Source of the DNA: Allobosea sp. LC85
Lineage (GTDB): Bacteria; Pseudomonadota; Alphaproteobacteria; Rhizobiales; Beijerinckiaceae
Length of the DNA: 64,000 bases
Assembly: GCF_000735605.1 (NCBI RefSeq)
Contig: NZ_JPKG01000044.1
Span: 1-64,000 of the forward strand
Direction: 5' to 3'
Below the pieces are notes generated by a model. It saw nothing but the letters and a program-made list of their open reading frames with translations. It ran no database searches and was not told the DNA's origin. Below are positions 4,041 to 56,366 of this stretch, in pieces (positions within the stretch are counted from its first letter, which is position 1; every line of letters begins with the position of its first letter). Made by a program: the position numbers and the translations under genes.

Positions 4041-4382
4041 ATGCGGATGAGCGAGATTCCTTTCGGAACGGTCGATTGGAGTTCAGTGGAACCGGAGCGT
4101 CACCCGGGCGAGGCGGGCGAGGCGATTTGGCGCACGCGCTACTTCGGACCGGCGGAGAATGCGATCAGGGTCCGCATGGTCGAATACTCCGCGGGCTACG
4201 TCTCGGATCACTGGTGCTCGAAGGGGCATGTCCTGCTCTGCCTCGAAGGCGAGCTGGAGACCGTGCTGGAAGACGGGCGCGCCTTCACGCTCCGGCCCGG
4301 CATGAGCTATCAGGTCGCCGATCAGGCCGAGGCGCATCGCTCGCGGGCGCCCAGGGGGGCGAAGCTGTTCATCGTCGATTAG
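4041..4382 (+). CDS. DHCW-motif-type cupin fold protein
   Basis: A 113-aa single-domain cupin. The segment SDHWCSKGH followed by LLCLEGELE matches the small cupins named for a DHCW motif, and TLRPGMSYQVAD supplies the second cupin motif. The function of this family is not established. The start is placed at ATG 4041 because GGAG at 4027-4030 is 10 nt upstream; ATG 4047 is possible, and longer in-frame starts give an unrelated N-terminus. The stop codon TAG (4380-4382) is the first three bases of the dispersed repeat that follows. Confidence 0.75.
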   Translation: MRMSEIPFGTVDWSSVEPERHPGEAGEAIWRTRYFGPAENAIRVRMVEYSAGYVSDHWCSKGHVLLCLEGELETVLEDGRAFTLRPGMSYQVADQAEAHRSRAPRGAKLFIVD

Positions 4383-4586
4383 ATCGCCGTGCGTCCATTC
4401 GGACGCAGGAGCGGCGATCTAACTCTTTGTTTGAGCATCGGATTTTTTCCGAAAACCGATTCCACTTTTCGGTCCGATGCTTTAGATCATCGGACCGAAA
4501 ATCGTATCCGGTCCGATGATCCAACTTTCTGTGTTTGCATCGGCTTTCCCGAAAACCGCAATCCACGTTTCGGGCCGATGCTTTAG
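4380..4586. repeat. Dispersed two-hairpin repeat, locus 1 (double unit)
   Basis: Four hairpins lie between the convergent cupin and serB genes. The first is TAGATCGCCG...CGGCGATCTA (4380-4389/4412-4421) with an inner TGCGTCC/GGACGCA stem. The second is GCATCGGA...CCGATGC (4435-4480). The third is GATCATCGGACCG/CGGTCCGATGATC (4485-4497/4509-4521). The fourth is GCATCGGC...GCCGATGC (4537-4581), with an inner CCCGAAA/TTTCGGG stem. Hairpins 3 and 4 are closely repeated at 11374, 12283 and 56261, and hairpin 4 also at 51831. The stop codons of both flanking genes lie within the repeat. A bidirectional terminator role is plausible. Confidence 0.9.
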
Positions 4587-5470
4587 ATCTGGATGATCTC
4601 GTCGCCACGATAGCCCTGTGCATAGAGCAGAGCTGTCAGATCCGCGTGGTCAAGCCGGGCATCTGCGGCAGCCGCAACTGCCGGTTTGGCTCTGAAGGCG
4701 ACGCCAAGCCCGGCCTCGCCGAGCATCGCGAGATCGTTGGCGCCGTCGCCGACCGCCAATGTCGCCGCTCTTGGAAGGCTGCGCTGCTCGCGCAGTTCGA
4801 CAAGCGAGTCCAGCTTGGCCTGTTTGCCGAGGATCGGGGCTTCGACTTCGCCGGTCAGGACGCCGTTGGCGACGAGGAGCGTGTTGGACCGATCCTCGTC
4901 GAAGCCGATGGTTGCACCGAGCGGACCCGTGAACACGGTGAAGCCGCCCGAGACCAGCGCCGTGTAGGCTCCGTTGGCACGCATGGTGCGCACCAGTTGC
5001 CGGCCTCCGGGCGTCAACGTGATGCGCTCGCGGATGATTTCGTCCACCACCGAGGCCGGGACGCCTTTCAGCAGCGCAACGCGCTCGCACAGCGCCGGTT
5101 CGAAGGCAATCTCGCCGCGCATGGCGCGTTCGGTGATGCTCGCGACCTTGTCCTTGAGCCCGACATAGGCGGCGAGTTCGTCGATGCATTCCTGACCGAT
5201 CATGGTCGAATCCATGTCGGCGAGGAAGAGTGCCTTGCGGCGAGTCGCAGCCGGCTGGACGATGACATCGACCTCGCTTCCGTCGAGCGCTGCACGAATG
5301 TCGGCTTCGAGCTTGCGTGCGTGCGGCCGATCCGCGAAGAGGTCTGCTGCGACCTCGCCATCAAGGCGGGATTGCCGGGTTACGCCGGATACGGCATTGG
5401 CCAGACGCGTCAGCAGGGCGTCGCTCAGCAGCGCCTGGCCGTGAGCGGAAACAAGTGTCGCGACGAGCAT
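4583..5470 (-). CDS. serB: Phosphoserine phosphatase SerB
   Basis: Catalyses the last step of serine synthesis, L-phosphoserine to L-serine plus phosphate. The protein is 295 aa, normal for alphaproteobacterial SerB with an N-terminal ACT-like region (about 1-75). The HAD nucleophile motif is DMDST with Asp85 and Asp87. The thiol motif equivalent is VSGGFTVF, and the C-terminal metal site is VGDGANDLAML. The start at 5470 is chosen from the family N-terminus; longer frames run antisense through miaA. Its start is only 18 nt from the miaA start on the other strand. The TAA stop is contributed by the dispersed repeat. Confidence 0.93.
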   Translation of the reverse strand: MLVATLVSAHGQALLSDALLTRLANAVSGVTRQSRLDGEVAADLFADRPHARKLEADIRAALDGSEVDVIVQPAATRRKALFLADMDSTMIGQECIDELAAYVGLKDKVASITERAMRGEIAFEPALCERVALLKGVPASVVDEIIRERITLTPGGRQLVRTMRANGAYTALVSGGFTVFTGPLGATIGFDEDRSNTLLVANGVLTGEVEAPILGKQAKLDSLVELREQRSLPRAATLAVGDGANDLAMLGEAGLGVAFRAKPAVAAAADARLDHADLTALLYAQGYRGDEIIQI

Positions 5471-5488
5471 GAGAAGGACCGGTTGAGC

Positions 5489-6409
5489 GTGGCGTACAGG
5501 GCGGTGCTCATCGCAGGTCCTACGGCGAGCGGCAAGTCCGCGTTGGCGATCGAGATTGCGCGCCGCTTCGGCGGGACGGTCGTCAATGCGGATTCGATGC
5601 AGGTCTATGCCGATCTGCGCATCATCACTGCGCGGCCGACGATCGAAGAGGAAGCGATGGTTCCTCACCGTCTCTATGGCCATGTCGACGGCGCCGTGAA
5701 CCATTCGGCAATGCGCTATGTCGCAGATGTCAGCGCTATCCTCGGCGAACTGGAGCGCAATGGATCGCTTCCCGTGCTGGTCGGTGGGACCGGGCTCTAC
5801 TTCAAGGCCTTGACCGAGGGCCTTTCGGAAATCCCGCCGGTGCCCGAGGCTGTTCGCTCGGCCTTTCGCGCCCATGCCGAGGCGCGCGAGACAGCCGCGC
5901 TCCATATCGAACTTCAGGGCTGCGATCCCGCCATGGCCGAGCGGCTGCGGCCGAGCGACCGCATGCGGATCATGAGAGCGCTGGAAGTCTTTGCCGCGAC
6001 CGGACGGTCGCTGGCGAGTTTCCAGGGGGCCCGGAAGCCCGGCCCGCTGGACGGGGGAGCGCTGCTCCGGCTGTTCGTCTCTCCCGAACGCGACCTGGTG
6101 CGTGCTCGCATCGATCGACGCTTCGAGCAGATGATGGGGGAGGGCGCCCTCGACGAGGTTGCGGCGCTACGGGCGCGCGGACTCGATCCGCTGCTGCCGG
6201 TCATGCGCGCGCATGGCGTACCCGGCCTGATCGCCTATCTCGACGGGGCGCTCAGCCTTGATGAGGCCATCGCGAGGGGGCAGGCCGACACGCGCGCCTA
6301 TGCGAAGCGCCAGGTCACATGGTTCCGTCACCAGATGGCAGGCTGGCACGCTGTTGCGCCTGAGGCGGCTCTCGGCCTTGCGCTGCGCGAGCTGGAAAAT
6401 ACGGCCTGA
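5489..6409 (+). CDS. miaA: tRNA dimethylallyltransferase MiaA
   Basis: Transfers a dimethylallyl group to A37 of tRNAs that read codons starting with U. The P-loop GPTASGKS is at residues 10-17, followed by NADSMQVY (substrate Asp), GGTGLYF, and a C-terminal TRAYAKRQVTWFR segment typical of MiaA. The GTG start at 5489 is preferred because AGAAGGA (5472-5478) is at good spacing; TTG 5483 is an alternative. The open frame continues far upstream only because it is antisense to serB. The gene ends two bases before the convergent GGDEF gene, with no room for a terminator. Confidence 0.93.
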   Translation: MAYRAVLIAGPTASGKSALAIEIARRFGGTVVNADSMQVYADLRIITARPTIEEEAMVPHRLYGHVDGAVNHSAMRYVADVSAILGELERNGSLPVLVGGTGLYFKALTEGLSEIPPVPEAVRSAFRAHAEARETAALHIELQGCDPAMAERLRPSDRMRIMRALEVFAATGRSLASFQGARKPGPLDGGALLRLFVSPERDLVRARIDRRFEQMMGEGALDEVAALRARGLDPLLPVMRAHGVPGLIAYLDGALSLDEAIARGQADTRAYAKRQVTWFRHQMAGWHAVAPEAALGLALRELENTA

Positions 6410-6411
6410 GG

Positions 6412-7872
6412 TCAGGCGGCTTCGGCGACGTCGGTCCCCGCGAAGCGGATGCAGTCACGGCCTTCGTGCTTGGCGCGGTACAGGGCGCTGTCGGCGCGCG
6501 CAAAGAACTCCGCGAAGCTCTCCGCACCCTCGAGGGTCGCAACCCCAAGGCTCGCGGTGACACGCAGGGACATCGTCTCGGAGGTCGGCAACTCGCGCAT
6601 CGCCAGCGCATCCTGGATACGATGGGCGATGCGGATGGCGGCTGTGGATCCCGTGCGTGGCAGGAAGACGGCGAACTCCTCGCCGCCGAAACGCCCCACC
6701 AGATCGCGCTCGGGCCTGACCAGACCAAGCAGAAGATCGGCGAAGGCCCTGATCACCGCATCGCCTGCCACATGGCCATGCGTGTCGTTGACGCTCTTGA
6801 AGTGGTCGATGTCGACAATGATCAGGGACGTATCGTCACCGTCAGTTTCGCACGCGAGGATCTCGCGATTGGCCTTCTCGATGAAGGAGCGCCGGTTTAG
6901 AAGTGCGGTCAGCGGATCTGTCTCGGCAAGGCGGCGCAGTTCCTGCTCGCGTTCCTCGCGCTGGCCGATTTCATGAGACAGCGCACGCCGGGTCGCGCGC
7001 TCCCGGCCGATCTCGAGTGCCAGCGTCGCGGCACGGCTTTGCAGTGTCAGGTTCGCGATCATCAGCTCGGAGATGTCGGTGAGCGTGATCACCAGCCCGT
7101 CGCCGAGAGGAGCCAGCGCGAGCTGGAGCCAGATCTCACGGCCATTCACGGTGAAACTGGATTCGAAGATGTCATTGCGGCGCAGCTCGATGGCATAGAG
7201 GCAGCGGCGCCAGATCATGGCGTCAGAGAGGAAGGGCAGGCTCGTGCGTGCGTCCGTGTCGAGCAGGTTTTCGTTGGGGTGACCGGCCATCAGCGCCGCG
7301 CGGCGATTGGCGGTGATGATGATCGTGCGCTCGATGTTGCCGTCATCGTCGCGCACGGCCCGCAGTGCGACAATGCCGCTTGGCGAGGTTTCCAGAACCG
7401 TGGTCAGCAGTTCCTCGCGGAACTGCAGCGGGCGACTGAATACGACGAGGAAGCGATCACCGTTCGCGGCGCTGGTCGGCAGGACCAGGCGCTCCCAAAG
7501 GCAGACCCGGACGGTCTTGAGCGAACGATGCACGGTGTACATCGGCTTGCCGTCCGCCAGGGCCTGATCATAGCATTGGATCGTGAACCGGGCGACCTGA
7601 GGGGTCATTTGCGAGATGCGTTCGCCCTGCCTGCTGCCGCCGACATAGCGCGTGATCTCGCGGCCGAAATGCTCATAGCAATAATCGCCGTCTCCGATGG
7701 GGACGCAGACCATGAGGTCGTCGCCGAAGCGGGGCATCAGGTCCTGGAGCAGTGCCTCGTAAGGGACGCCGCCTTTGCCAGGGGCGTGCAGGGCAAAGCG
7801 TTGCAGAAGTTCGGCTACTTCCGGCGCATGGGCGCGTTCGACAATGTTCTGGGTGTGCACTTCCTGATACAT
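6412..7872 (-). CDS. GGDEF-domain diguanylate cyclase with PAS-like N-terminus
   Basis: A 486-aa cytoplasmic protein with no obvious membrane segment. The C-terminal domain (about 315-480) carries DPLTALLNRRSF, the substrate helix DHFKSVNDTHGH, and the active-site motif GGEEF, so it is probably an active synthase of the second messenger c-di-GMP. The product-inhibition site is degenerate: PERD stands where RxxD is expected, five residues before GGEEF. The N-terminal 310 residues look like two PAS-type folds (LETSPSGIVALRAV is a PAS start) joined to the cyclase by a coiled-coil-like stretch (IGQREEREQELRR). Signal and partner are unknown. Confidence 0.88.
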   Translation of the reverse strand: MYQEVHTQNIVERAHAPEVAELLQRFALHAPGKGGVPYEALLQDLMPRFGDDLMVCVPIGDGDYCYEHFGREITRYVGGSRQGERISQMTPQVARFTIQCYDQALADGKPMYTVHRSLKTVRVCLWERLVLPTSAANGDRFLVVFSRPLQFREELLTTVLETSPSGIVALRAVRDDDGNIERTIIITANRRAALMAGHPNENLLDTDARTSLPFLSDAMIWRRCLYAIELRRNDIFESSFTVNGREIWLQLALAPLGDGLVITLTDISELMIANLTLQSRAATLALEIGRERATRRALSHEIGQREEREQELRRLAETDPLTALLNRRSFIEKANREILACETDGDDTSLIIVDIDHFKSVNDTHGHVAGDAVIRAFADLLLGLVRPERDLVGRFGGEEFAVFLPRTGSTAAIRIAHRIQDALAMRELPTSETMSLRVTASLGVATLEGAESFAEFFARADSALYRAKHEGRDCIRFAGTDVAEAA

Positions 7873-8037
7873 GGCGGCCCCGTTTCGCGCGCAAGGACCT
7901 TAGCAAGGTCGTTCTTGAAAAAGTGTTCCCTTTCGTCATGGGATTTTCGGAACCGGCGGCCATTGAGCTTTTGCGGCTTGACCCTGCCAAACCGGTCGTC
8001 TAGCGTGCCGCAATTATCGCAAAGGGTGTCGGGCGCG

Positions 8038-8073
8038 ATGCGCAAGCTTATTATCGTACGGGTGCGCTGGTAG
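8038..8073 (+). CDS. Leader peptide of the ilvB attenuator
   Basis: An 11-codon open frame reading MRKLIIVRVRW and then a stop. Five of its codons (Leu, Ile, Ile, Val, Val) specify branched-chain amino acids, as expected for a peptide whose translation senses charged Leu/Ile/Val tRNA. AAAGGG at 8021-8026 is a plausible ribosome site. The last nine bases before the stop (8062-8070) are perfectly complementary to 8107-8115, so ribosome position can change folding of the RNA downstream. It ends 118 nt before ilvB. Confidence 0.82.
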   Translation: MRKLIIVRVRW

Positions 8074-8142
8074 GGGGCGGTTGAACAAACCGCTTGGCCC
8101 CTGACGCCAGCGCACGCCCAGGCCCCTCCGCGGGCCTTTTTT
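8060..8142 (+). promoter_or_regulatory. Transcription attenuator upstream of ilvB
   Basis: Alternative stems follow the leader peptide. GTGCGCTGG (8062-8070) can pair with CCAGCGCAC (8107-8115). A hairpin GCGGTT/AACCGC sits at about 8077-8093 and can extend to AGGGG (8072-8076)/CCCCT. An intrinsic terminator, AGGCCC/GGGCCT (8120-8125/8132-8137), is followed by six T residues. This is the architecture of amino-acid attenuation: scarcity of Leu, Ile or Val would stall the ribosome and prevent termination. The exact antiterminator pairing is inferred. Confidence 0.8.
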
Positions 8143-8191
8143 ATTGCCCGATTTTCCCTGAACTGACCCGAAGACCCCCGAGGAGAACGAC

Positions 8192-9952
8192 ATGAGCGAG
8201 ATGATGACCGGCGCGGAAATGGTCGTCCGCGCGCTTCAGGATCAAGGCGTCGAACATCTGTTCGGCTACCCCGGCGGCGCCGTGCTGCCGATCTATGACG
8301 CGCTCTTCCTCCAGGACAAGGTCAAGCACATTCTGGTTCGGCACGAGCAGGGTGCCGTCCATTCGGCGGAGGGCTATGCGCGCTCCTCGGGCAAGGTTGG
8401 CTGTGTTCTGGTGACCTCCGGTCCCGGCGCGACCAATGCCGTCACCGGACTGACCGACGCGCTGCTCGACTCGATCCCGGTTGTCGTCATCACCGGGCAG
8501 GTCCCGACGCATCTGATCGGCTCCGACGCCTTCCAGGAATGCGACACGGTCGGCATCACGCGCTCCTGCACCAAGCACAATTATCTCGTGAAGAGCATCG
8601 CGGACCTGCCGCGCATCCTGCATGAGGCCTTCTATGTCGCCGCCAACGGCCGTCCCGGGCCCGTCGTCGTCGATATCCCGAAGGACATCCAGTTCGCAAA
8701 GGGCGAGTATACCCGCCCGCGCGACAACCAGCACAAGACCTATCGTCCGACGGTCAAGGGTGACCTGAACAAGATCAAGGCTGCGGTCGAGTTGATGGCC
8801 AAGGCCAAGCGGCCGATCTTCTACACCGGCGGCGGCGTCATCAATTCCGGCACGCACGCCTCGGCGCTGCTGCGCGAACTGGCGCGGCTGACCGGCTATC
8901 CCGTCACCTCGACGCTGATGGGCCTGGGTGCCTTCCCGGCGGCCGACAAACAGTGGCTCGGCATGCTGGGCATGCACGGCACCTACGAAGCCAATCTTGC
9001 GATGCATGACTGCGACGTCATGATCAATATCGGTGCGCGCTTCGACGACCGCATCACCGGTCGGCTCGACGCTTTTTCGCCGCGCTCGAAGAAGATCCAT
9101 GTCGATATCGACCCGTCCTCGATCAACAAGAACGTCAAGATCGACATCGGCATCGTGGGTGATTGCGCGCATGTGCTGGAAGACATGGTCCGCATCTGGC
9201 GTGAGACCAGCCCCCAGGTCGACAAGGAGGCCTTGAAGGGCTGGTGGGAGCAGATCAGCGGCTGGCGTGCGCGCAACAGCCTCGGCTACAAGCAGTCCGG
9301 CGCGGTCATCAAGCCGCAATACGCGATCGAGCGGCTCTATGAGCTGACCAAGGACCGGGACACCTACATCACCACCGAAGTCGGCCAGCACCAGATGTGG
9401 GCGGCGCAGTACTTCCGCTTCCAGGAGCCGAACCGCTGGATGACCTCGGGCGGGCTCGGCACCATGGGCTACGGCCTGCCGGCGGCAATCGGCGTGCAGA
9501 TGGCCCATCCGAAGGCGCTTGTCGTCGACATCGCCGGCGAAGCCTCGATCCTGATGAACATGCAGGAGATGTCGACGGCGGTGCAGCACCGGCTGCCGGT
9601 CAAGATCTTCATCCTGAACAACGAATACATGGGCATGGTTCGACAGTGGCAGGAACTGCTGCATGGCGGGCGCTATTCGGAGAGCTATTCGGCTTCCTTG
9701 CCCGATTTCGTGAAGCTCGCCGAAGCCTATGGCGGCCACGGCATCCGCTGCTCGGATCCGGAACAGCTCGATGACGCGATCCGCGAGATGATCGATACGC
9801 CGAAGCCGGTGATCTTCGATTGCCTCGTGGCGAAGGAAGAGAACTGCTTCCCGATGATCCCGTCGGGCAAGGCCCATAACGAGATGATCCTGCCCGATTT
9901 CGAGGGAAATACAGGCGATATCATCGACGCCAAGGGCAAGCAGCTTGTCTGA
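8192..9952 (+). CDS. ilvB: Acetolactate synthase, large (catalytic) subunit
   Basis: The first committed enzyme of Val/Leu/Ile synthesis; it condenses pyruvate with pyruvate or 2-oxobutyrate using ThDP and FAD. The 586-aa length is normal. The N-terminal ThDP domain has FGYPGGAVLP and the catalytic Glu in RHEQGAVH. The central domain is FAD-binding, and the C-terminal ThDP domain has GLGTMGYGLPAAIG and DIAGEASILMNMQEM (Gly-Glu where many homologues have Gly-Asp). A clear GAGGAGA site precedes the ATG. The gene is controlled by the leader/attenuator just upstream, and its small subunit is encoded 1.6 kb downstream. Confidence 0.95.
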   Translation: MSEMMTGAEMVVRALQDQGVEHLFGYPGGAVLPIYDALFLQDKVKHILVRHEQGAVHSAEGYARSSGKVGCVLVTSGPGATNAVTGLTDALLDSIPVVVITGQVPTHLIGSDAFQECDTVGITRSCTKHNYLVKSIADLPRILHEAFYVAANGRPGPVVVDIPKDIQFAKGEYTRPRDNQHKTYRPTVKGDLNKIKAAVELMAKAKRPIFYTGGGVINSGTHASALLRELARLTGYPVTSTLMGLGAFPAADKQWLGMLGMHGTYEANLAMHDCDVMINIGARFDDRITGRLDAFSPRSKKIHVDIDPSSINKNVKIDIGIVGDCAHVLEDMVRIWRETSPQVDKEALKGWWEQISGWRARNSLGYKQSGAVIKPQYAIERLYELTKDRDTYITTEVGQHQMWAAQYFRFQEPNRWMTSGGLGTMGYGLPAAIGVQMAHPKALVVDIAGEASILMNMQEMSTAVQHRLPVKIFILNNEYMGMVRQWQELLHGGRYSESYSASLPDFVKLAEAYGGHGIRCSDPEQLDDAIREMIDTPKPVIFDCLVAKEENCFPMIPSGKAHNEMILPDFEGNTGDIIDAKGKQLV

Positions 9953-9982
9953 CGATCAGCAAGCAGGCGAGGAGATGCGGGC

Positions 9983-10690
9983 ATGAGCACGATCGGCTTG
10001 ATCGGCGGCATGAGCTGGGAATCGACGGCGGTTTACTACCGGCTGCTCAATGAGCGGGTGCGCACGCTTCGGGGCGGGCTGCACTCGGCCGATGTGCTGC
10101 TGCATTCGCTTGATTTCGCGCCGATCGCCGAGATGCAGGCAAGCGGGGATTGGGCTGCGGCCGGGCATCTTCTGGCCGACAGCGCCATCCGGCTGGAGCG
10201 GGCGGGCGTAAACTGCATCCTGCTCTGCACCAACACGATGCACAAGCTCGCGGACCGGATCACGGCCGCGACACGCGTGCCCTTCCTGCATCTTGCGGAC
10301 GTGACCGCGACGGCGATCCGCAAGAGCCCGTCGCGGCGACCGCTCTTGCTGGCGACGCGCTTCACGATGGAACAGGCCTTCTATCGCGAGCGTCTTGCCG
10401 CGTTCGGCGTCGAGGCCATGGTCCCCGATGCGGAACAGCGCGACGATGTCCATCGCATCATCTACGAGGAGATCTGCCGTGGCCGGATCGAGCCTGCCTC
10501 GAAGGCACGCTATCTCGATATCGTCGCAGCAGCCGTAAGGCAGGGCGCGGACGGCGTGATCCTTGGGTGCACCGAGATCACCCTCCTGGTCTCGCAGGCG
10601 GATTTCGACATCCCGGTCTTCGACACGACGGCGCTGCATGTCGAAGCCGCGCTCGATTTCGGCCTGGAAACGGCGAGCCAGGCGGCATGA
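9983..10690 (+). CDS. Aspartate/glutamate racemase family protein
   Basis: A 235-aa member of the Asp/Glu racemase superfamily. The two catalytic cysteines are visible in CTNTMHK (first half) and ILGCTEITLLV (second half), and the N-terminal IGLIGGMSWEST is the family signature. It is likely an amino-acid racemase of the aspartate type; the substrate cannot be fixed from sequence. It lies 30 nt after ilvB and its stop overlaps the start of the following GST gene (ATGA), so it probably belongs to the ilvB transcript. Confidence 0.85.
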   Translation: MSTIGLIGGMSWESTAVYYRLLNERVRTLRGGLHSADVLLHSLDFAPIAEMQASGDWAAAGHLLADSAIRLERAGVNCILLCTNTMHKLADRITAATRVPFLHLADVTATAIRKSPSRRPLLLATRFTMEQAFYRERLAAFGVEAMVPDAEQRDDVHRIIYEEICRGRIEPASKARYLDIVAAAVRQGADGVILGCTEITLLVSQADFDIPVFDTTALHVEAALDFGLETASQAA

Positions 10691-11376
10691 AGCTCCTGAT
10701 CGGAAACAAGTGCTATTCGTCCTGGTCGCTGCGGGCCTGGCTCCTGCTCAGCGCCAAGGGCATTGCGTTCGATGAGAAGCTCGTCCTGCTCGACGAGCCC
10801 GGCTTCAAGGAGGCGATCTTCGCAGAGGCTCCGGGCAGCGGCGGCACCGTGCCGACGCTGGTGGACGGGGATATCGCGGCGTGGGAGACACTCGCGATCA
10901 TGGAATACCTGCATGATCGGCATTCCGATCTCGGGATCTGGCCGAGGGAGCGCGCAGCACGAGCCCATGCCCGTGCCATATCGAGCGAGATGCATGCCGG
11001 GTTCTTTGCCTTGCGCCGGGCCTGTCCGATGAATCTCGGCAAGCGCTTTGCTGCACGCGATCGTGGGGCCGAGGTTGCCAGGGATGTCGCACGGATCACC
11101 GCGCTCTGGGGCGAGGCTCGCTCCCGCTTCGGCGAGGCGGGGGGAGGGCCGTTCCTCTATGGCGCCTTCTCCGCAGCCGACGCCATGTACGCGCCGGTCG
11201 TCACCCGGCTCGATACCTATGCGATCCCGGTCGATCCGGTCAGTGCCGCCTATATGGCCGCGGTACTCGCCCATCCCTCCTATCGCGACTGGCTGAAGGC
11301 TGCCCTCGCCGAACCCTGGATCGTAGCCCAGGACGAAGTCGACGAGCCCGCCACCGCCAATCTCCGTCACGTCTAG
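10687..11376 (+). CDS. Glutathione S-transferase family protein
   Basis: A 229-aa GST. The N-terminal thioredoxin-like domain begins LLIGNKCYSSWSLRAWLLL, where the Ser of SSWS is the likely glutathione-activating residue, and contains VPTLVDGD and the GSH-binding Glu-Ser equivalent (WETLAIMEYL). An all-helical C-terminal domain follows from about residue 85 to 215. The start is fixed by the ATGA overlap with the racemase gene. The TAG stop is the first triplet of a dispersed repeat. Substrate unknown. Confidence 0.85.
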   Translation: MKLLIGNKCYSSWSLRAWLLLSAKGIAFDEKLVLLDEPGFKEAIFAEAPGSGGTVPTLVDGDIAAWETLAIMEYLHDRHSDLGIWPRERAARAHARAISSEMHAGFFALRRACPMNLGKRFAARDRGAEVARDVARITALWGEARSRFGEAGGGPFLYGAFSAADAMYAPVVTRLDTYAIPVDPVSAAYMAAVLAHPSYRDWLKAALAEPWIVAQDEVDEPATANLRHV

Positions 11377-11477
11377 ATCATCGGACCGGATATCGCATCC
11401 GGTCCGATGATCTAACCTCCTGTGTTTGCATCGGCTTTCCCGAAAACCGCAATCCACTTTTCGGGCCGATGCTTTAG
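11374..11477. repeat. Dispersed two-hairpin repeat, locus 2
   Basis: The first hairpin is an 18-bp perfect stem (11374-11391 with 11397-11414) with loop ATCGC; it starts on the GST stop codon TAG. The second hairpin, GCATCGGC...GCCGATGC (11428-11472), contains an inner CCCGAAAA/TTTTCGGG stem, then TTTAG. It lies between two same-strand genes (GST and ilvN), so if it terminates transcription, ilvN needs its own promoter or depends on read-through. Confidence 0.92.
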
Positions 11478-11511
11478 TTCCGAATTCCGCTTCAGCTCCT
11501 GCAGGTGTCCG

Positions 11512-12054
11512 ATGCCGACGTCAGCCACGCATTATCCGAACGCTCCCAAGATCCAGCCGATCGCCCGCCACACGCTGGCGGTGATCGTCGACAATGAACC
11601 GGGCGTTCTCGCCCGCATCGCCGGGCTGTTCTCGGGTCGCGGCTACAATATCGAGAGCCTCACCGTCTCCGAAACCGAGCACGAGAAGCACATCTCGCGC
11701 ATCACCGTGGTCACCTCGGGTACCGCCAACGTCATCGAGCAGATCAAGGCGCATCTCGACCGGCTGGTGCCGGTGCACCGGGTCGTCGATCTGACGCTTC
11801 AGGGCGAGGCGCTGGAGCGCGAACTCGCCTTGGTCAAGGTCGTCGGCAAGGGCGACCATCGCGTCGAGGCAATGCGGCTTGCGGCGGCGTTCGGGGCACG
11901 GACACTCGATGCGTCCCTGACCTCCTTCGTCTTCGAACTCACGGGCTCGACCGAGGAGATCGAGCGGTTCATCAAGCTGATGACCGTGGTCGGGCTCACC
12001 GAGGTCTCGCGCACGGGCATCGCGGCGATGAGCCGTGGCCCCGAGGCGATGTGA
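11512..12054 (+). CDS. ilvN: Acetolactate synthase, small (regulatory) subunit
   Basis: Regulatory subunit of acetolactate synthase that confers valine feedback control. The 180-aa length is normal. The N-terminal ACT domain reads HTLAVIVDNEPGVLARI and GLFSGRGYNIESLTV; the C-terminal domain covers about residues 95-170. I chose ATG 11512, which leaves a short non-ACT N-terminus; AGG at 11503-11505 is a weak ribosome site. It is separated from ilvB by two unrelated genes and a repeat, an arrangement tolerated in alphaproteobacteria. Confidence 0.94.
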   Translation: MPTSATHYPNAPKIQPIARHTLAVIVDNEPGVLARIAGLFSGRGYNIESLTVSETEHEKHISRITVVTSGTANVIEQIKAHLDRLVPVHRVVDLTLQGEALERELALVKVVGKGDHRVEAMRLAAAFGARTLDASLTSFVFELTGSTEEIERFIKLMTVVGLTEVSRTGIAAMSRGPEAM

Positions 12055-12063
12055 TCGAAGGCA

Positions 12064-12285
12064 ATGGACGCGGCTTCGCTCAACATGGTGGCGCTTGCGC
12101 TCGGGGCGGCCGGATTCGGCTGCTTCGCCTGGCCGATCATCCAGCGGCTCAATGGCAAGGCGCCGGCGGAAGCACCAGGCAGCGGCAAGAGCCTGCGCTC
12201 GCCGCTGTGGTGGGCCGGCTTCGTACTGACGGTTGCGGCGATCTTCCTGCAGCGCATCGCCAGTCAGCAGGCGGGAGGAGTTTAG
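12064..12285 (+). CDS. Small two-helix membrane protein, unknown function
   Basis: A 73-aa protein with two hydrophobic segments (about residues 8-26 and 48-65) separated by a polar loop rich in Ala, Pro, Gly and Lys. I do not recognise a family. It follows ilvN by 9 nt and probably shares its transcript. Its TAG stop (12283-12285) is supplied by the downstream dispersed repeat, as for the GST gene upstream. Confidence 0.65.
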   Translation: MDAASLNMVALALGAAGFGCFAWPIIQRLNGKAPAEAPGSGKSLRSPLWWAGFVLTVAAIFLQRIASQQAGGV

Positions 12286-12381
12286 ATCAACGGACCGGAT
12301 ATCGTCTCCGGTCCGTTGATCTCACTTCTGTGTTTGCATCGGATTTCTCCGAAAAGTGGATTCCACTTTTCGGTCCGATGC
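12283..12381. repeat. Dispersed two-hairpin repeat, locus 3
   Basis: The first hairpin is GATCAACGGACCGGA/TCCGGTCCGTTGATC (12285-12299/12307-12321). Against the other copies, T is changed to A on the left arm and A to T on the right arm, preserving pairing. The second hairpin spans 12336-12381 and has an unusually long inner stem, CCGAAAAGTGGA/TCCACTTTTCGG. It lies between convergent genes (73-aa membrane protein and DUF924), where it could end both transcripts. Confidence 0.92.
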
Positions 12382-12401
12382 TCGGGTGTCCCGCGCCAGC
12401 C

Positions 12402-12947
12402 TCAGCCGCTGAAGCCGCCTGTATCAAGGAACGCGCGCTCTTCGGTCGTCGTGTCGCGGCCGAGAACAGCGTTGCGATGCGGGAAGCGGCCGAAGTCGCG
12501 GATGATGTCGCGGTGAATGATCGCATATTTGGTGCTGTCCTCATCGCCCGAGGCGCGGCTCAGTTCGATGCAGCGTTCCTGATGGTCCAGCTCTTCGGAA
12601 TGCATGAAGGGCATGTAGAAGAAACGCCGCTCCGGGTTGGTGAAGTGCTGGTCGAAGCCGCGGGCGATGGCGCGCTCGGCGACCTCGACAGCGAGATCGT
12701 CGCTGGCGAAGGCTTCGGGCGAGCCGCGGTAGAGGTTGCGCGGAAACTGGTCCAGCAGGATGAGCAGCGCATAGGCGCCTTCGGGGGTCTCTTCCCAGGC
12801 ACTGAGCCCGCCTGCCGCTGCGGCGCGCTGGGCCTCAAGAAAGCGACCGCGGATCTCGTCGTCGAAGGCGTCGTCCTTGGCGAACCATTTATCCGGCCCG
12901 GCTTGTCGCCAGAAGGCGACGGTCTCGGCAGCCGTAGGCAAGCTCAT
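12402..12947 (-). CDS. DUF924 family protein
   Basis: A 181-aa soluble, mostly helical protein. The segments LLILLDQFPRNLYRG and RFFYMPFMHSEELDHQERC are hallmark sequences of DUF924, whose fold is TPR-like; the biochemical role is not known. The start at 12947 is preceded by GGGAG with good spacing. It is convergent with the small membrane protein gene across a dispersed repeat. Confidence 0.85.
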   Translation of the reverse strand: MSLPTAAETVAFWRQAGPDKWFAKDDAFDDEIRGRFLEAQRAAAAGGLSAWEETPEGAYALLILLDQFPRNLYRGSPEAFASDDLAVEVAERAIARGFDQHFTNPERRFFYMPFMHSEELDHQERCIELSRASGDEDSTKYAIIHRDIIRDFGRFPHRNAVLGRDTTTEERAFLDTGGFSG

Positions 12948-13123
12948 ATCGTATCTCCCAGATCGCATAACGCGTTGGCTGTGAACCGCAATTGTGCCAG
13001 CGGACCGGCAGGTCGCGGCGCAGGTTGACCGATTTCGCGCCGAAGTGGAACCCGGCTCAGCCCCGTGCGAGGATCTTCGCGCGCTGGCCCTTGCGCTCGG
13101 AAAAGCCTTCCTGTAGAGACCGA

Positions 13124-13138
13124 ACCGTAACGTACGGT
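13124..13138. promoter_or_regulatory. Palindromic operator candidate upstream of the TetR gene
   Basis: ACCGT and ACGGT form an inverted repeat around AACGT, ending nine bases before the TTG start of the TetR-family gene. TetR proteins commonly repress their own gene through such sites. This is a single occurrence with no second copy to compare, so support is modest. Confidence 0.35.
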
Positions 13139-13146
13139 ACTGATCC

Positions 13147-13803
13147 TTGGGCGCCATTTCCGACACAGCGAGCGAAGGACTGACGGCCCGGCAACAGGCC
13201 GTGCTCGATGCTGTCCTTGGCCTGATGGTCGAGAAGGGCGATCACCTGACGATGACGGCCGTCGCCCGGCGTGCGAGCTGCTCGAAGGAAACCCTCTACA
13301 AGTGGTTCGGTGATCGTGACGGCCTGCTGACGGCGACTGTACAGTGGCAGGCCTCGAAAGTGCGCGCCGGCAACTATGATCGCCAGAAGCTCGATGCCCT
13401 GACGCTGCGCGATAGCCTGACGCGTTTCGCCGCGAACTGGCTCAATGTGATCACCAGCGACACCTCGATTGCGCTGAACCGGATTGCCATCAGCCAGGCC
13501 GGATCGAAAGCCGGCAATCTCGGTGGGATCGTGCTGGCAAACGGACGTGTCGCCATCGGCGAGCGCCTGAAACCGGTTATCGACGCAGGCCGCGAGGCTG
13601 GCCTCCTGGCTTTTGACGACACCGAGACGGCCTTTCGCACGTTCCTCGGCCTCGTCGGGCGCGATGTGCAGATCAGGCTGCTGCTGGGTGATGCGCTGGT
13701 GCTGAGCCCGGCGGAGAACGAGCGCGATGCAGCGCGCGCCACCGATCAATTCCTCACTCTGTACGGCGCGGTTGAAGCCGCGCCGGGCAAAGAAAAACCC
13801 TAA
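13147..13803 (+). CDS. TetR/AcrR family transcriptional regulator
   Basis: 218 aa. The N-terminal helix-turn-helix domain contains MTAVARRASCSKETLYKWFGDRDGLL, a standard TetR recognition helix, followed by a helical ligand/dimerisation domain. The start must be TTG 13147 or another non-ATG codon, because an in-frame TGA stands at 13141-13143 and the next GTG would remove part of the helix-turn-helix lead-in. It lies 21 nt before ilvC on the same strand, an unusual neighbour for ilvC. Ligand and targets are unknown. Confidence 0.85.
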   Translation: MGAISDTASEGLTARQQAVLDAVLGLMVEKGDHLTMTAVARRASCSKETLYKWFGDRDGLLTATVQWQASKVRAGNYDRQKLDALTLRDSLTRFAANWLNVITSDTSIALNRIAISQAGSKAGNLGGIVLANGRVAIGERLKPVIDAGREAGLLAFDDTETAFRTFLGLVGRDVQIRLLLGDALVLSPAENERDAARATDQFLTLYGAVEAAPGKEKP

Positions 13804-14844
<1,041 letters not shown>

Positions 14845-14931
14845 TCGGCTTCAGGCCCTGATCCGCGGCCTTGGCGAGCCGATGCAATTTCGCTCGCCAA
14901 GCAGCTGACAGGGCTAACAAATCGTTGATTC

Positions 14932-14967
14932 CGAGAGGGCGGATGCAGTAATGTGTCCGCCCTCTCG
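14932..14967. terminator. Hairpin downstream of ilvC
   Basis: A 12-bp perfect stem CGAGAGGGCGGA/TCCGCCCTCTCG (14932-14943/14956-14967) lies 88 nt after the ilvC stop. No long T-run follows (GCCTTTCC), so termination may be weak or the hairpin may protect the 3' end. Confidence 0.5.
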
Positions 14968-15035
14968 CCTTTCCGGGCGTGGAACCGGTTCGAGTCCGAT
15001 GCGTTCGTAAGGGCAGTCGTACGTGGAGGCGGCCC

Positions 15036-49239: not shown

Positions 49240-49257
49240 GTGCATTGCACCCGGATG

Positions 49258-49395
49258 TCACTGTTTGATGCTGCCCAGCAGGGAGTTGGTCAGGCCGACA
49301 ATGCCTGCCCATATCTCGCGGGTATAGGCGCCCTGATGAACGACCGCGTCAAAGCCAATGGCGATCACGGCGATAATCAATAGAATCCGGAACAT
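49258..49395 (-). CDS. Small membrane protein, 45 aa
   Basis: Begins FRILLIIAVIAIGFDAVVHQGAYTREIWAGIVGLTNSLLG and ends SIKQ: one hydrophobic helix (about residues 4-18) and a short amphipathic tail. AGGAGG with a six-base spacer before ATG 49395 is a near-ideal ribosome site. Longer in-frame starts add an Arg-rich segment that looks non-coding. I do not recognise a family. It converges with the helicase gene. Confidence 0.6.
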   Translation of the reverse strand: MFRILLIIAVIAIGFDAVVHQGAYTREIWAGIVGLTNSLLGSIKQ

Positions 49396-49556
49396 GTGAT
49401 CCTCCTGGCCGAACCCTTGTTCAGAACGCGGGCCAGACCGGTCTGTTCCGCAACGCAGCATGGCTCGCCGCCGTCGGGGGGCGTCCATCTGCAGGTTGAC
49501 CCCTGCATGGCGGCGGTGTCCCTTCGAGTTGCGTCAGGGATCGGTGAGGAAGCGGC

Positions 49557-51747: not shown

Positions 51748-51830
51748 GGCTGATGCTCGCGAGGGTGAATTTGACTTGGCGGGAGAGCGCCGGGATCTGG
51801 TCCGGGCGGCGATGTCTAGCCTTCTGTGTT

Positions 51831-51879
51831 GCATCGGCTTTCCCGAAAACCGCAATCCACTTTTCGGGCCGATGCTTTA
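51831..51879. repeat. Dispersed repeat, locus 4 (second hairpin only)
   Basis: Only the GCATCGGC...GCCGATGC hairpin (51831-51875) with the inner CCCGAAAA/TTTTCGGG stem is present, preceded by the characteristic CTTCTGTGTT. The first hairpin is missing; CTAG and a GATC nearby may be remnants. The minus-strand TTAAAGC edge supplies the uraH stop codon. Confidence 0.88.
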
Positions 51880-52233
51880 ACTTCCGCGATAGGTCGAGTA
51901 GCTCCAGGGCGAGGCCAGGAGCGGAACATGATAATGGCCATCCGCGTCAGCGATGCCAAAGCGGATCGGCACGGCATCGAGGAAAGCGGGCTCCGGCATG
52001 GTGGTGCCGAGCGAACGAAAATAGGCGCCGAGCGCGAATGTCAGTTCGTAGGTGCCGGGTTGGAGGGCCTCTCCGGTGAGCAAGGGCTGGTCGGTGCGTC
52101 CGTCGGCATTGGTCGTCGTCTCGAGGATGCGCTCGCGCTTGCCATCGGATGTCAGGCGATCGAGCGCGAGCGTCAGTCCCGCGGCGGGCCTGCCATTGAC
52201 CGTGTCGAGCACATGCGTCGAGAGACGTCCCAT
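51877..52233 (-). CDS. uraH: 5-Hydroxyisourate hydrolase UraH (transthyretin-like)
   Basis: 118 aa. Converts 5-hydroxyisourate to OHCU, the step between urate oxidation and Ura[14 protein letters not shown] at the N-terminus holds the catalytic His, RTDQPLL follows, and the C-terminus is the diagnostic YRGS tetrapeptide after [15 protein letters not shown]. The TAA stop is part of the dispersed repeat. Same strand as puuE-uraD, with 129 bp between; divergent from puuD. Confidence 0.95.
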
Positions 52234-52404
52234 CCCTGCGGATCCTCTGAAAATGCGCCGGCCGAACCGCTGATGTTGTGTGCTGTTCGTGGCGAAGCTT
52301 GCGTTCGGAAAAAGGCCAACCCTAGTCTGGACGCATCATGAAGGTTCCATCCCGGATTCGGCCCTGTCAATCAATTGCGCGCCCGGCGGGAGAGGGGCTT
52401 TCGC

Positions 52405-53640
52405 ATGCTTGACGCCTATCTGCTCGAATGGGGCGGCATGCTGCTGCGCTGGCTGCATGTGATCACGGCGGTTGCCTGGATCGGCGCATCCTTCTTCTTC
52501 ATCCATCTCGACGCGTCCTTGCGGCCCGGCGCCGATATTCCGGCGGGTGAGGGGGGGCGTGCCTGGCAAGTGCATGGCGGCGGTTTCTACGAGATGCGCA
52601 AATATCTGGTCGCCCCGCCGCGCATGCCGGAGGAGCTGACCTGGCATAAGTGGCAGAGCTACTGGACCTGGATCTCGGGGTTCTTCCTGCTGGTCTGGGT
52701 CTATTACGCTCAGTCGGAGCTCTATCTGATCGACCCGGCGGTCATGGCGCTGTCCCCCTTCGCGGCCGGCGCAATTGGCATCGCCGCGCTGGCGCTGGGC
52801 TGGCTGTTCTATGACTGGCTCTGCAAGTCGCCGCTGGGCAAGAACGAGGCCGTGCTCGGGCTGCTCGGCTTCGGTTACGTCATTGCCGCATCCTACGCCT
52901 TCAGCCAGGTCTTCTCCGGGCGTGGCGCGCTGATCCATACCGGTGCGCTGATGGCGACGATCATGACCGCCAATGTCTTCTTCATCATCATGCCGAACCA
53001 GCGGAAGGTCATCGCCGCGCTGACGGCAGGCGAGAAACCCGATCCGCGGCTCGGCAAGCAGGCCAAGCAACGCTCGACGCACAACAATTACATCACCCTG
53101 CCGGTGCTGTTCCTGATGCTGTCGAACCACTATCCCGTCACCTACGCGAGTTCGGCGATCATCCCGGCCCTGGTGGCGCTGATCATCATCGCGGGCGCGC
53201 TGATCCGGCATTTTTACAATGTCCGCCACGCCGATCACGCCAGATCGCCGTGGTGGACCTGGGCCGTTGCGCTGGTTGCGCTCTGGCTCGCCTTCTGGCT
53301 GGCTATGGCATCGTCGCCGGGCGGGCGCGAGCGGCTCGGACTGAGGGCCATCGAGCCGGGCAGGCCGGCACTTCTGGCGGGGATGAACCTGCCGCCGGCC
53401 GAGGTGGCGAACATCGTGACGGGGCGCTGTGCCATGTGTCATGCGCCGGAACCGTCCTGGCCGGGTATCCAGATCGCGCCCAAGGGGATCTGGCTGCATG
53501 AGCCGGAGCGGATCGCCGTTCAGGCCCGCGCCATTCGGACGCAGGCGGTGATGACCCATGCCATGCCGCCCAATAACCTGACCGGCATGACGGAGGCGGA
53601 GAGGCGTACGCTCGGAGCCTGGCTCGCCGCGCAGCGCTGA
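52405..53640 (+). CDS. puuD: Membrane urate oxidase PuuD with cytochrome c domain
   Basis: 411-aa inner-membrane protein that oxidises urate to 5-hydroxyisourate. About eight transmembrane helices (DUF989 region, residues 1-300) with conserved HVITAVAWIGASFFFIHLD and SYWTWISGFF, then a periplasmic-type cytochrome c domain with the heme motif CAMCH (342-346) and a downstream Met (AMPPNN). ATG 52405 is preceded by GGGAGAGGGG. Divergent from uraH, making a compact urate-degradation locus. Confidence 0.93.
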   Translation: MLDAYLLEWGGMLLRWLHVITAVAWIGASFFFIHLDASLRPGADIPAGEGGRAWQVHGGGFYEMRKYLVAPPRMPEELTWHKWQSYWTWISGFFLLVWVYYAQSELYLIDPAVMALSPFAAGAIGIAALALGWLFYDWLCKSPLGKNEAVLGLLGFGYVIAASYAFSQVFSGRGALIHTGALMATIMTANVFFIIMPNQRKVIAALTAGEKPDPRLGKQAKQRSTHNNYITLPVLFLMLSNHYPVTYASSAIIPALVALIIIAGALIRHFYNVRHADHARSPWWTWAVALVALWLAFWLAMASSPGGRERLGLRAIEPGRPALLAGMNLPPAEVANIVTGRCAMCHAPEPSWPGIQIAPKGIWLHEPERIAVQARAIRTQAVMTHAMPPNNLTGMTEAERRTLGAWLAAQR

Positions 53641-53691
53641 CGCACCGGGCTTTCCAAAGCGTTCAGCCTGTTTCCGCCAACGCACGAAAAT

Positions 53692-53716
53692 GTGAACCCA
53701 TTCAGTTTCGGTTCAC
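53692..53716. promoter_or_regulatory. Inverted repeat upstream of the YfhO-like gene
   Basis: GTGAACC (53692-53698) and GGTTCAC (53710-53716) form a perfect 7-bp inverted repeat with an 11-bp spacer, 91 bp before the GTG start at 53807. It could bind a dimeric regulator. Single copy in the window. Confidence 0.4.
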
Positions 53717-53806
53717 GTGGGTCTTGTCAAGGTCAGCAATACTGACAGGGCTGGAAGAAGGTTCCCACACCGGGGCCGTCCGTGCCGGGGGACCTTGGGG
53801 GTCCAG

Positions 53807-56263
53807 GTGAAGCGGTTTGAAGGTCAGGCCGCCGGCTATTGGCTGGCGGCGCTGGGATTTGTTTGTGCGTGGAGCATCCTGTGCTGGCCCTGGCTTTCCG
53901 GGGCGGTCACGATTCCCTTCGATGCCAAGGCGCATTTCCAGGCCCAGATCCAGTTCCTCGCCCAGGCCCTGCATAGCGGCCAATCGCCATTCTGGACACA
54001 TAATGTCTTCGGCGGCTCGCCGCAGGTTGCCGATCCGCAATCCCTGATCTTCTCGCCTGCCATCCTGCTTGCGTTGCTGACGCCGTCGCCGAGCTTCCGG
54101 ATGGTCGATGCCTATGTGCTGGCGCATCTGCTCGCCGGCGGGCTCGCCTTCCTGATGTTCTTCCGCGACCGCGGTTGGCACCCTGCCGGCGGCCTGCTTG
54201 CCGCGCTCGTCTTCGCCTTTGGCGCCTCGGCCGCGTGGCGCGTACAGCATGTCGGCCAGATCGCGAGCCTTGCGTTCTTTGCGATCGCCTTCTGGCTGAC
54301 GGCGCGGATGCTGCAACGCTCGTCGCTGCGCGCTGGCGCGCTTGCCGGCTTTGCCGCCGGCCTGATGGTGCTGGAGCCCGATCAGGTGGCGCTGCTCGGC
54401 GCCTATGTGCTGATTGGCATGGTCGTCGCGCATTGGTTCGCCGGCGGCTGGGCCGCTGTCCGGGCGAGCCTCGCGCCGATCTCGGTCGCGAGCCTCGCCG
54501 GACTTGCGACGATCCTGCTGCCGCTGATCTGGACCTGGCTTTTCGCCGAGGCGACGACACGCCCTGAGGTCGATCTGACCGAAGCAGGACGTGGCTCGCT
54601 GCATCCGGCCTCGCTGCTGACCGCCTTCGTGGCCGATCTCTTCGGCGCGCGCGATCCGGCCGTGGATTTCTGGGGGCCCTACAGCCCGGCCTGGGATGCC
54701 AAGGAGCTCTTCCTGTCGCAGAACATGGGGCAGGTCTATTTCGGCGCGCTGCCGCTGTTGCTTCTGATCGCGCCGGGCCTCAGTCGCGGCTGGCTCTGGG
54801 ATAAGGCGATCCGGCCGCTGACGCTGCTCTTCGTCTTCATGGTGCTGTTCGCGCTCGGGCGCTACACACCGCTGTTCCAGGCCGCCTATGAGTATTTACC
54901 TGGAGTGAAGGTCTTCCGTCGCCCGGCCGATGCGACCTTCCTGATCGGTGCGCTTGGTGCGCTGCTCGCAGGTTACGTGCTGCATCGCATTCTGAGCGAG
55001 GAGCGTCTCGGTTCACTGCGCAGTGATCTCGGTATTGCCGGTGTGGTCGTCGCTGCGCTCGTCGCTACAGCCTTGTTCGTCTCGAGTCGCGAGGGGCATC
55101 TTGCCGATGCGTGGTGGCCGAGCCTGTCGGCGGCCTTCTGGTTTGCGGGTGCTGCGCTGATCCTGGTTGCGCTGACGCGCTGGCGCGGAGCGCTGGCGCC
55201 TCTCGCCAGCGTGCTGCTGATCACCGGCGTGGTCGGGGCCGACCTTGGCGTCAATAACGGCCCCAACGACTCGACTGCACTGTCGCCGCAGCTCTACGAC
55301 GTGCTCCGCCAGGAGACGAAGAACGAGACTGTCCGCGTTCTCAAGCAACTGGTTGCCCAGCCGGCAGGTTCGCCACGCCGCGATCGCGTCGAGCTGCTCG
55401 GCATGGGCTTCGAATGGCCGAATGTCGGGATGGTTCATGGTTTTGACCATACGCTTGGCTATAATCCATTGCGGCTGGCCGATTTCTCGGATGCCGTCGG
55501 CACGCGAGATTCGATCGCTGCGCCGGACCAGCGCAAGTTCACACCGCTCTTCCCCTCCTATCGCTGCCGCCTCGCCGATCTCCTCGGCCTGCGCTACATC
55601 GCGACACGTGTTCCGATCGGTCAGGTCGATCACGCGTTGAAGGCGGATGATCTCAGGCTCGTCGCCTTCACGGGGGATGGCTACATCTACGAGAATCCAC
55701 GGGCCCTGCCGCGCGCCATGTTCGTCGGCGGCTGGCAGCTCGCCGATTTCGACGGCATGAAGTCTGCCGGCCAGTGGCCCGACATCGATCCGCAGCAGGT
55801 TGTGCTGCTCGATAGCGTACCGCCGGATGCGGTGCCCGAAGGGCCGATTTCGGCGCAAGCCGAGGTCAAGCTGACACGCTACCAGAACACCGAAGTCGAG
55901 ATCACCGTCACGACAGACAAGCCTGGCTTCATCCTGCTCAACGACATCTGGCATCCATGGTGGCGGGCGGAGCTCGACGGTGCGGAAGTCGATATCCTCA
56001 GGGCGAATGTACTGTTTCGTGCCGTGCAGGTGCCGGCGGGGACGCATACGGTGCGCTTCAGTTTCAATCCGGTCGAGGGGGCCATTGCCGAGCTGCGCGA
56101 TCGCGTCGAACCGATCGTGCCGGAGGAGGTGCCTTCGACTGCCGAACCACGCGTCGCGACGGGATCCGGCTCGATGCCAAATCCGCGTCTCTACGAAGAT
56201 GGCAGCTGGTTCGAAAGCCGCGATCTCGGCCAACCGCCACTGTCCGCGACCCTGGTGCGTTAG
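53807..56263 (+). CDS. Large YfhO-like polytopic membrane protein
   Basis: 818 aa with about 12 hydrophobic helices in the first 500 residues and a soluble C-terminal domain. WPWLSGAVTIPFDAKAHFQAQIQF, SPFWTHNVFGGSPQVADPQ and the C-terminal LNDIWHPWWRAELDGAEVDI resemble YfhO-family proteins, which are related to glycosyltransferases using lipid-linked sugars (GT-C-like). The donor and acceptor are unknown. The GTG at 53807 fits the first helix best; GTG 53717 would add 30 non-hydrophobic residues. The TAG stop lies in a dispersed repeat. Confidence 0.75.
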   Translation: MKRFEGQAAGYWLAALGFVCAWSILCWPWLSGAVTIPFDAKAHFQAQIQFLAQALHSGQSPFWTHNVFGGSPQVADPQSLIFSPAILLALLTPSPSFRMVDAYVLAHLLAGGLAFLMFFRDRGWHPAGGLLAALVFAFGASAAWRVQHVGQIASLAFFAIAFWLTARMLQRSSLRAGALAGFAAGLMVLEPDQVALLGAYVLIGMVVAHWFAGGWAAVRASLAPISVASLAGLATILLPLIWTWLFAEATTRPEVDLTEAGRGSLHPASLLTAFVADLFGARDPAVDFWGPYSPAWDAKELFLSQNMGQVYFGALPLLLLIAPGLSRGWLWDKAIRPLTLLFVFMVLFALGRYTPLFQAAYEYLPGVKVFRRPADATFLIGALGALLAGYVLHRILSEERLGSLRSDLGIAGVVVAALVATALFVSSREGHLADAWWPSLSAAFWFAGAALILVALTRWRGALAPLASVLLITGVVGADLGVNNGPNDSTALSPQLYDVLRQETKNETVRVLKQLVAQPAGSPRRDRVELLGMGFEWPNVGMVHGFDHTLGYNPLRLADFSDAVGTRDSIAAPDQRKFTPLFPSYRCRLADLLGLRYIATRVPIGQVDHALKADDLRLVAFTGDGYIYENPRALPRAMFVGGWQLADFDGMKSAGQWPDIDPQQVVLLDSVPPDAVPEGPISAQAEVKLTRYQNTEVEITVTTDKPGFILLNDIWHPWWRAELDGAEVDILRANVLFRAVQVPAGTHTVRFSFNPVEGAIAELRDRVEPIVPEEVPSTAEPRVATGSGSMPNPRLYEDGSWFESRDLGQPPLSATLVR

Positions 56264-56366
56264 ATCATCGGACCGGATCTCGTATCGGTCCGATGATCCA
56301 ACCCTTCCGTGTTCACATCGGCTTTGCCCCGAAAACCGCAATCCACTTTTCGGGCCGATGACTTAG
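56261..56366. repeat. Dispersed two-hairpin repeat, locus 5
   Basis: First hairpin GATCATCGGACCGGAT with ATCGGTCCGATGATC (56263-56278/56284-56298, one base missing on the right arm). Second hairpin CATCGGC...GCCGATG (56316-56360), with CCCCGAAAA/TTTTCGGG inside, ends GACTTAG. The first triplet TAG is the stop of the YfhO-like gene. It is convergent with the ferredoxin-NADP reductase gene. Confidence 0.92.

Follow-up and report, generated by a model that had tools for sequence, protein, structure and literature searches.

The first 64,000 nucleotides of contig NZ_JPKG01000044.1 of Allobosea sp. LC85, analysed as one stretch and referred to as the window, carry at five loci a dispersed repeat of two hairpins whose edges are the stop codons of six genes. 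This repeat is very probably a two-hairpin miniature inverted-repeat transposable element (MITE) of the IS630/Tc1-mariner type, which resembles RUP, inserts into YTAR targets (Y, pyrimidine; R, purine) and usually preserves the stop codons at which it arrives. The interpretation is based on the copy number of its core, the YTAR target, the TA on both sides, gene ends that fall on the same codon with and without the element, and ends that are similar to those of a resident IS630-type insertion sequence (IS).

The element has a length of about 102-105 bp and is bounded by TA. Its first hairpin opens with GATCATCGGACCGG and is followed by a linker and by a second hairpin running from GCATCGG through CCGAAAACCG and CACTTTTCGG to CCGATGCTT. 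A core of 25 letters, 22 of them specified (CCGAAAACCGNNNTCCACTTTTCGG), was matched exactly 205 times in the own genome (6.56 Mb, 74 contigs), compared to 0 matches of the reversed control; these counts represent hairpin 2, of which there are tandem arrays as well, and not all 205 matches are separate elements. Because of this difference from the control, and because at least 39 of 71 sampled sites have a stop codon at the edge, the repeat is not a product of chance. A looser core was present in 89 of 297 genomes sampled from the order (probably Hyphomicrobiales), with one control match overall, and in 53 of 61 genomes of the genus, with no control match, the own genome being included in both sets and leading both lists with 231 copies. 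Among plasmids, Bosea sp. NBC_00550 and B. vaviloviae gave the best matches, which makes Bosea a likely host genus.

Target sites and gene ends with and without the element

Sites were sampled in the window and six contigs (one of them partial), together 1,643,315 bases, with genes called by an uncurated hexamer model trained on the own genome; this sample contains 76 copies of hairpin 2 at 71 sites. For 39 of these sites, both flanks were located in the close relative G353, where, classed by eye, 22 were empty, 12 carried the element in the same orientation and 3 in the inverted one, and 2 (sites 59 and 65) were set aside. The element is thus present at many sites in one species and absent in the other, which bears out the proposal of a preliminary description of this DNA that it is mobile or repeatedly copied. 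Empty sites in G353 read, e.g., GTCTAGTTCC, CGTCTAGTCC and GCCTAGGAC. The first of these corresponds to the full-length type-1 copy at 11374..11476 (+) of the window, the left TAG of which is the stop codon of a glutathione S-transferase (GST) gene. There, the filled site is GTC-TA-[element]-TA-GTTCC, with TA occurring once in the empty and twice in the filled state. Both G353 and G349, another relative, are empty at this place, with CTAG, and in a search of 60 other genomes all 29 further loci of the genus that were extracted lacked the element.

Judged by eye, the 22 empty sites comprised 12 of the form NTAR (two of them GTAG), 9 that are one transition away from YTAR and 1 that was unreadable. 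Likewise, at the readable edges of filled sites, a pyrimidine precedes the left TA in 43 of 45 cases and a purine follows the right TA in 46 of 48. Both the comparison of filled with empty sites and these Y..R flanks indicate a TA target-site duplication: YTAR is the site of insertion, and the inserted element is flanked by TA on either side.

Gene ends were compared at sites where the element edge is a stop codon. In 13 of 15 empty orthologues of G353, the last codon of the gene is the same although the element is missing, with 7 TAG, 1 TAA and 5 TGA stops, and the gene end was also unchanged in all 8 occupied sites tested. A TAR stop is present in 8 of the 13, compared to 22% of sampled stops away from elements (P 0.003), which fits TAR as the target. 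As the first base of the element is G at the left end and A at the right end (reverse strand), TA is completed to TAG or TAA, and the stop is rebuilt in either orientation. Usually, therefore, the stop pre-dates the insertion and either end of the element rebuilds it. The earlier statement that the element supplies stop codons is right in so far as both edges read as stops, while in 13 of 15 empty orthologues the stop was there already; the position of the last codon is largely independent of the element, which for the most part counts against that statement, although the stop context differs, with TGA in 5 of 13.

Three states of one site are documented at the window copy 12283..12384 (+), which is of full length with a decayed right edge (CTCGG) and whose left TAG terminates the gene of a 73-aa protein. 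G349 is empty by eye (GGCTAGCC, with CTAG), the window carries the element in forward and G353 in inverted orientation, and the C-terminal length of the protein is unchanged in all three (QAGGV or QAGGG). At two further sites, window 4380 and C6:8619 (a contig of the own genome, as are C4, C27, C28 and C54 below), the orientation in G353 is likewise opposite. These cases are explained most simply by independent insertion at a favoured site; inversion in place is possible but less simple.

A stop codon lies exactly at the element edge in at least 39 of the 71 sites, and copies are accordingly not scattered at random distances from coding ends. In 19 sites, the upstream gene stops at the left-edge TAG, and in 20 others a downstream minus-strand gene stops at the right edge. 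The total is a minimum, with several left edges unlocated, e.g., at sites 51, 61 and 63, where an edge stop is visible by eye; the scored number of sites with stops at both edges, 0, is too low by at least 1, as the right edge was misplaced at site 43 (window 4380), which has both. Among element-free YTAG sequences outside coding interiors, 17.6% are situated at stops (CTAG, 24%). From comparable YTAG sites, stratified by intergenic type, 20.6 stop-edge sites (standard deviation 3.7) would be expected versus the 39 observed, and about 25 when used targets are restored; with this restoration, convergent settings feature 26 versus 16.7 expected (P 0.001) and tandem settings 13 versus 8.0 (P 0.037).

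A 1.2-Mb portion of G353 contains 31 copies, of which 18 are nearly full-length, and a hand count from offsets gives a stop at the edge for 16 of these 18; genes were called there with the model trained on the own genome, and roughly half of the sites are common to both genomes. In addition, one RefSeq-annotated gene of a Bosea plasmid (n=1) terminates exactly on the right edge of an element. On plasmid pAtS4e of Allorhizobium ampelinum S4 (L211, 1501-1604), an annotated thioesterase gene apparently reads into a copy whose right edge is TGTAG, compared to the common TTTAG. A second repeat family (TAGAGCATGCTGCG..., of the form TAGAGCATGCTGCGAAAAAGTGG...GCATGCTCTAAACTAT) occupies 16 places in the sample, e.g., C6:319438-319488 and C28:131718-131768. 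It has little stop-codon bias, with 2 of 16 left edges being stops compared to 39 of 71 sites here (Fisher P 0.002), in a partial control for which the left edge alone was scored; a stop at the edge is hence probably not a general trait of such repeats.

Copies in the window and the genes that end on them

All six stop codons at the five loci named in the preliminary description were confirmed at every coordinate by reading the window. The left edge forms the TAG stop at 4380, 11374, 12283 and 56261, and at the right edge a plus-strand TTA, i.e., a minus-strand TAA, forms the stops at 4583 and 51877; as had been claimed, the genes are convergent at 4380, 12283 and 56261, and they are in tandem at 11374 and 51831. 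The locus 4380-4585 consists of two tandem copies with a single common TA at 4483-4484. The first is of type 2 (4380..4484, +), with a hairpin 1 of the GATCGCCGTGCGTCC... form, and its left TAG ends a cupin-like gene (3957..4382, +). The second is of type 1 (4483..4585, +), and its right-edge TTA (4583-4585) is the minus-strand TAA stop of a serB-like HAD hydrolase gene (4583..5470, -). It looks as if this second copy had been inserted into the TTAG created by the earlier one. The copy at 51820..51879 (+; locus 51831) has retained hairpin 2 and lost most of a now degenerate hairpin 1, and its right-edge TTA is the minus-strand TAA stop of a uraH-like HIUase/transthyretin gene (51877..52233, -). 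A full-length copy at 56261..56365 (+) terminates with its left TAG a gene of a YfhO-like membrane protein (53795..56263, +).

Four of the six genes match Pfam families above cut-off, namely HAD, GST (10687..11376, +), transthyretin and YfhO. The cupin-like gene (21.1 bits, cut-off 27.2; started at 4086 by the hexamer caller) and the 73-aa protein gene (12064..12285, +; 21.0 bits, cut-off 24) remain below, and both reading frames are preserved in G353 (sites 43 and 45).

Within the frame TAGATC...GATCTA, hairpin 1 is represented by at least three unrelated sequences (C28:201440, C4:75120, C4:204356, window 4380 and C6:319318). Hairpin 2 occurs alone in tandem arrays of at least three units with a period of about 55-62 bp (C6:142895-143065, C6:471144-471303 and C54:103381-103717), and therefore multiplies independently of the first hairpin. 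At the gathering threshold, Rfam gave no match at the element loci and only a tRNA in the window.

Mobilisation, mechanism and rival explanations

Six places of the own genome encode IS630-type (PF13358) transposases. One of them, on C27, is a 1037-bp IS with a DDE_3 domain (E 1.8e-30) and an HTH_Tnp_IS630 domain (22.2 bits), which lies in a YTAR target between flanking TA dinucleotides and carries GAGCGTCGGAC at both ends. Its HTH and DDE parts lie in different frames. A frameshifted transposase gene may be normal in IS of this type, judging from the coding spans of six annotated relatives that have a single coding feature: 955 or 958 nt in four, which is not divisible by three, and 957 nt in two. 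Compared to the transposase-proximal end of this IS, the right end of type-2 elements agrees in 23 of 28 positions beyond the TA and the ends of type 1 in 19 and 18 of 28 (shuffle P 1e-5 to 2e-5); the left end of type 2 is more weakly similar to the IS, with 16 of 28 positions at best (P 2e-4). Nine IS copies were examined, the own one and eight chosen by hand from 298 matching plasmid records. TA-flanked ends could be delimited in eight of them, that of S. fredii being the exception; all eight, the own copy included, sit in YTAR, and seven (the own and six plasmid copies) have GAGCATCGGAC-like ends with at most 4 differences per end, the Mesorhizobium copy being different. The similarity of the ends suggests that the element is probably mobilised in trans by an IS630/Tc1-mariner-type transposase. 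IS4/IS5-type transposases (PF01609), detected at three places of the own genome (E 6.8e-18, 1.9e-15 and 2e-4), were rejected as candidates, as no close match to the element ends was found nearby; the only exception nearby is that ordinary copies of the element adjoin the third place.

According to these data, a non-autonomous element would have descended from, and would probably be moved by, a transposase of the IS630/Tc1-mariner type. YTAR targets are rare within the genes of the own genome and are found at TAG and TAA stops as well. When the TA of such a stop is hit, TA and the first base of the element would yield TAG (left end) or TAA (right end), and the gene would keep its length. Insertions at stops and in 3' intergenic space might be tolerated and so accumulate, and the mRNA would then end in two very stable hairpins, the first of which would begin at the stop codon.

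Several observations do not sit easily with the reading as an IS630-type MITE. By eye, about 10 of 13 positions agree between the left end GATCATCGGACCG and the right end (reverse complement, AAGCATCGGCCCG), and the end-to-end inverted similarity inside the element is short and imperfect. In the 61 genomes of the genus, 22 of which have a transposase match (E 1e-20), presence of the transposase and copy number of the element are uncorrelated (Spearman 0.12, P 0.35), and the genus genome G333 holds 111 core copies with no transposase match. The polarity of most sites is derived from one close relative, in which precise excision may have emptied some of them. Two of the 15 empty orthologues end at another codon, and the 5 TGA stops among the other 13 demand either later drift between TAR and TGA or a looser target. 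Moreover, the excess of stop codons over the availability of YTAG (39 versus 20.6 or about 25) goes beyond a plain MITE model and is left unexplained by it. A further reading is that of an element that seeks stop codons: it would insert preferentially at live stops beyond its preference for YTAR, its ends would have evolved to rebuild a stop either way, sister species would have received independent insertions of opposite orientation at the same stops, and gene ends would be a reusable safe harbour. We regard this as a tentative possibility, considerably less likely than its contrary.

Very unlikely, in our view, is the earlier proposal that ready-made stops come with the element and that its insertion trims or extends genes and so gives them new ends. 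Both edges read as stop codons, termini of repetitive extragenic palindromes (REPs) elsewhere are described as often giving flanking open reading frames (ORFs) their TAG (PMC3733652), and the annotated Allorhizobium gene apparently enters a copy. In addition, the two deviating orthologues differ by 3 and 29 codons: at site 8, the G353 gene is 3 codons longer, and at site 1, where the alignment is poor, it is 29 codons shorter, possibly by a genuine shift of the gene end. Apart from these two sites, trimming or extension finds little support, with 13 of 15 empty orthologues ending at the same codon without the element, and, among the 41 upstream genes on the same strand for which the left edge was located, a single one called as entering the element (offset 24, edge placed by a loose pattern). 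An origin as a REP or bacterial interspersed mosaic element (BIME), of the kind that REP-associated tyrosine (RAYT, Y1) transposases spread in enterobacteria and pseudomonads, would agree with the many palindromic copies near 3' ends, the tandem arrays of hairpin 2 and the presence of the core across the order (89 of 297 genomes). This origin was rejected as highly improbable: a profile search (Y1_Tnp, PF01797, E 0.001) found 0 matches in the own genome and hit 5 of 14 control genomes, the GTAG stem foot is lacking (1 of 45 readable left edges has G before TA), and TA on both sides and IS630-like ends are found instead.

It is hardly probable that the repeat is in the first place a conserved functional 3' element under selection (terminator, RNA stabiliser or ribosome-acting hairpin) with a merely historical mobility, although such a function and the MITE model are not exclusive. 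The hairpins are very stable, with folding z of -3.7 to -9.8 (six sequences, i.e., five copies, one on both strands), and among 34 aligned copies 7 pairs show two-sided change, each in one sequence, compared to 0.4 in shuffles; such covariation can also result from correction of the palindromes at the DNA level. The 71 sites comprise 35 convergent, 33 tandem and 3 divergent ones, a 3' bias which avoidance of promoters alone would predict as well. At sites with a stop at the left edge, the stop codon is part of hairpin 1, and REPs at most 15 nt from the stop are reported to stall ribosomes in Escherichia coli (PMC12306157, PMC5082802); by analogy, an effect of the element on translation is possible. 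Against selection for such a function, 22 of 39 syntenic sites are empty in the close relative, and the signature of an intrinsic terminator (stem-loop and T run) was found in 0 of 4 copies among 13 terminator-like sites, in a scan of positions 1-15000 of the window with loops of 3-8, for which shuffles give 8.3 sites. The bidirectional terminator considered before hence lacks an intrinsic signature in that region, while the stability of the hairpins would permit a non-canonical role.

Under the IS630-type MITE reading, widespread and so far unexplained intergenic palindromes, whose core was present in 89 of the 297 genomes sampled from the order, are connected to a specific IS630 clade that has similar ends and likewise targets YTAR. 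This reading offers a concrete mechanism by which a transposon may land inside a stop codon and leave the protein unchanged, and the question of whether stop codons are actively favoured or merely spared by selection becomes testable.

Relation to known repeats

The closest parallel is RUP of Streptococcus pneumoniae, a MITE of IS630-Spn1, which likewise features a TA target and ends resembling those of a resident IS630. For RUP, about 107 bp and 108 copies are reported (PMC2229807). The element differs from it by two separate hairpins, about twice as many core copies (231, loose pattern), an unrelated host lineage and the location of over half of the sampled sites at stop codons.

RIME1 has 108 bp and two palindromes. 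Besides these rhizobial intergenic repeats (PMC2573895), CIR is described with about 110 bp, two inverted-repeat arms with a linker and TA at the termini, its mobility being left open in that review (PMC2229807), and Bru-RS with 103-105 bp as an intergenic repeat (PMC2267715). CIR corresponds to the element in length, two-arm layout and TA termini, and Bru-RS in similar length and intergenic type; the likeness of RIME, CIR and Bru-RS to it is one of description. IS711 of Brucella is assigned to the IS5/IS427 family. It is reported to use a YTAR target with an apparent TA duplication (PMC2266754). Its target is that of the element, while IS711 is a complete IS with two ORFs.

In the literature covered, from which most subscription journals are absent, no paper surfaced that deals with this element in Bosea or with stop codons of alphaproteobacteria that hold IS630 MITEs. 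Stop codons formed by repeat termini already have a precedent in GTAG-tagged REPs, which are described as palindromic, as mostly lying between convergent or unidirectional genes and as often forming with their termini the TAG of a flanking ORF (PMC3733652). The element shares with them the palindromic structure, the mostly convergent or tandem settings and the termini that act as a TAG stop, and it differs from them in the base before TA (G in 1 of 45 left edges), the lack of a Y1 match in its genome, the TA on both sides and the IS630-like ends. Added to this precedent here are the evidence from empty sites that the stops usually existed beforehand, the rebuilding of the stop by both ends of the element, and the switch of orientation at one and the same stop codon.

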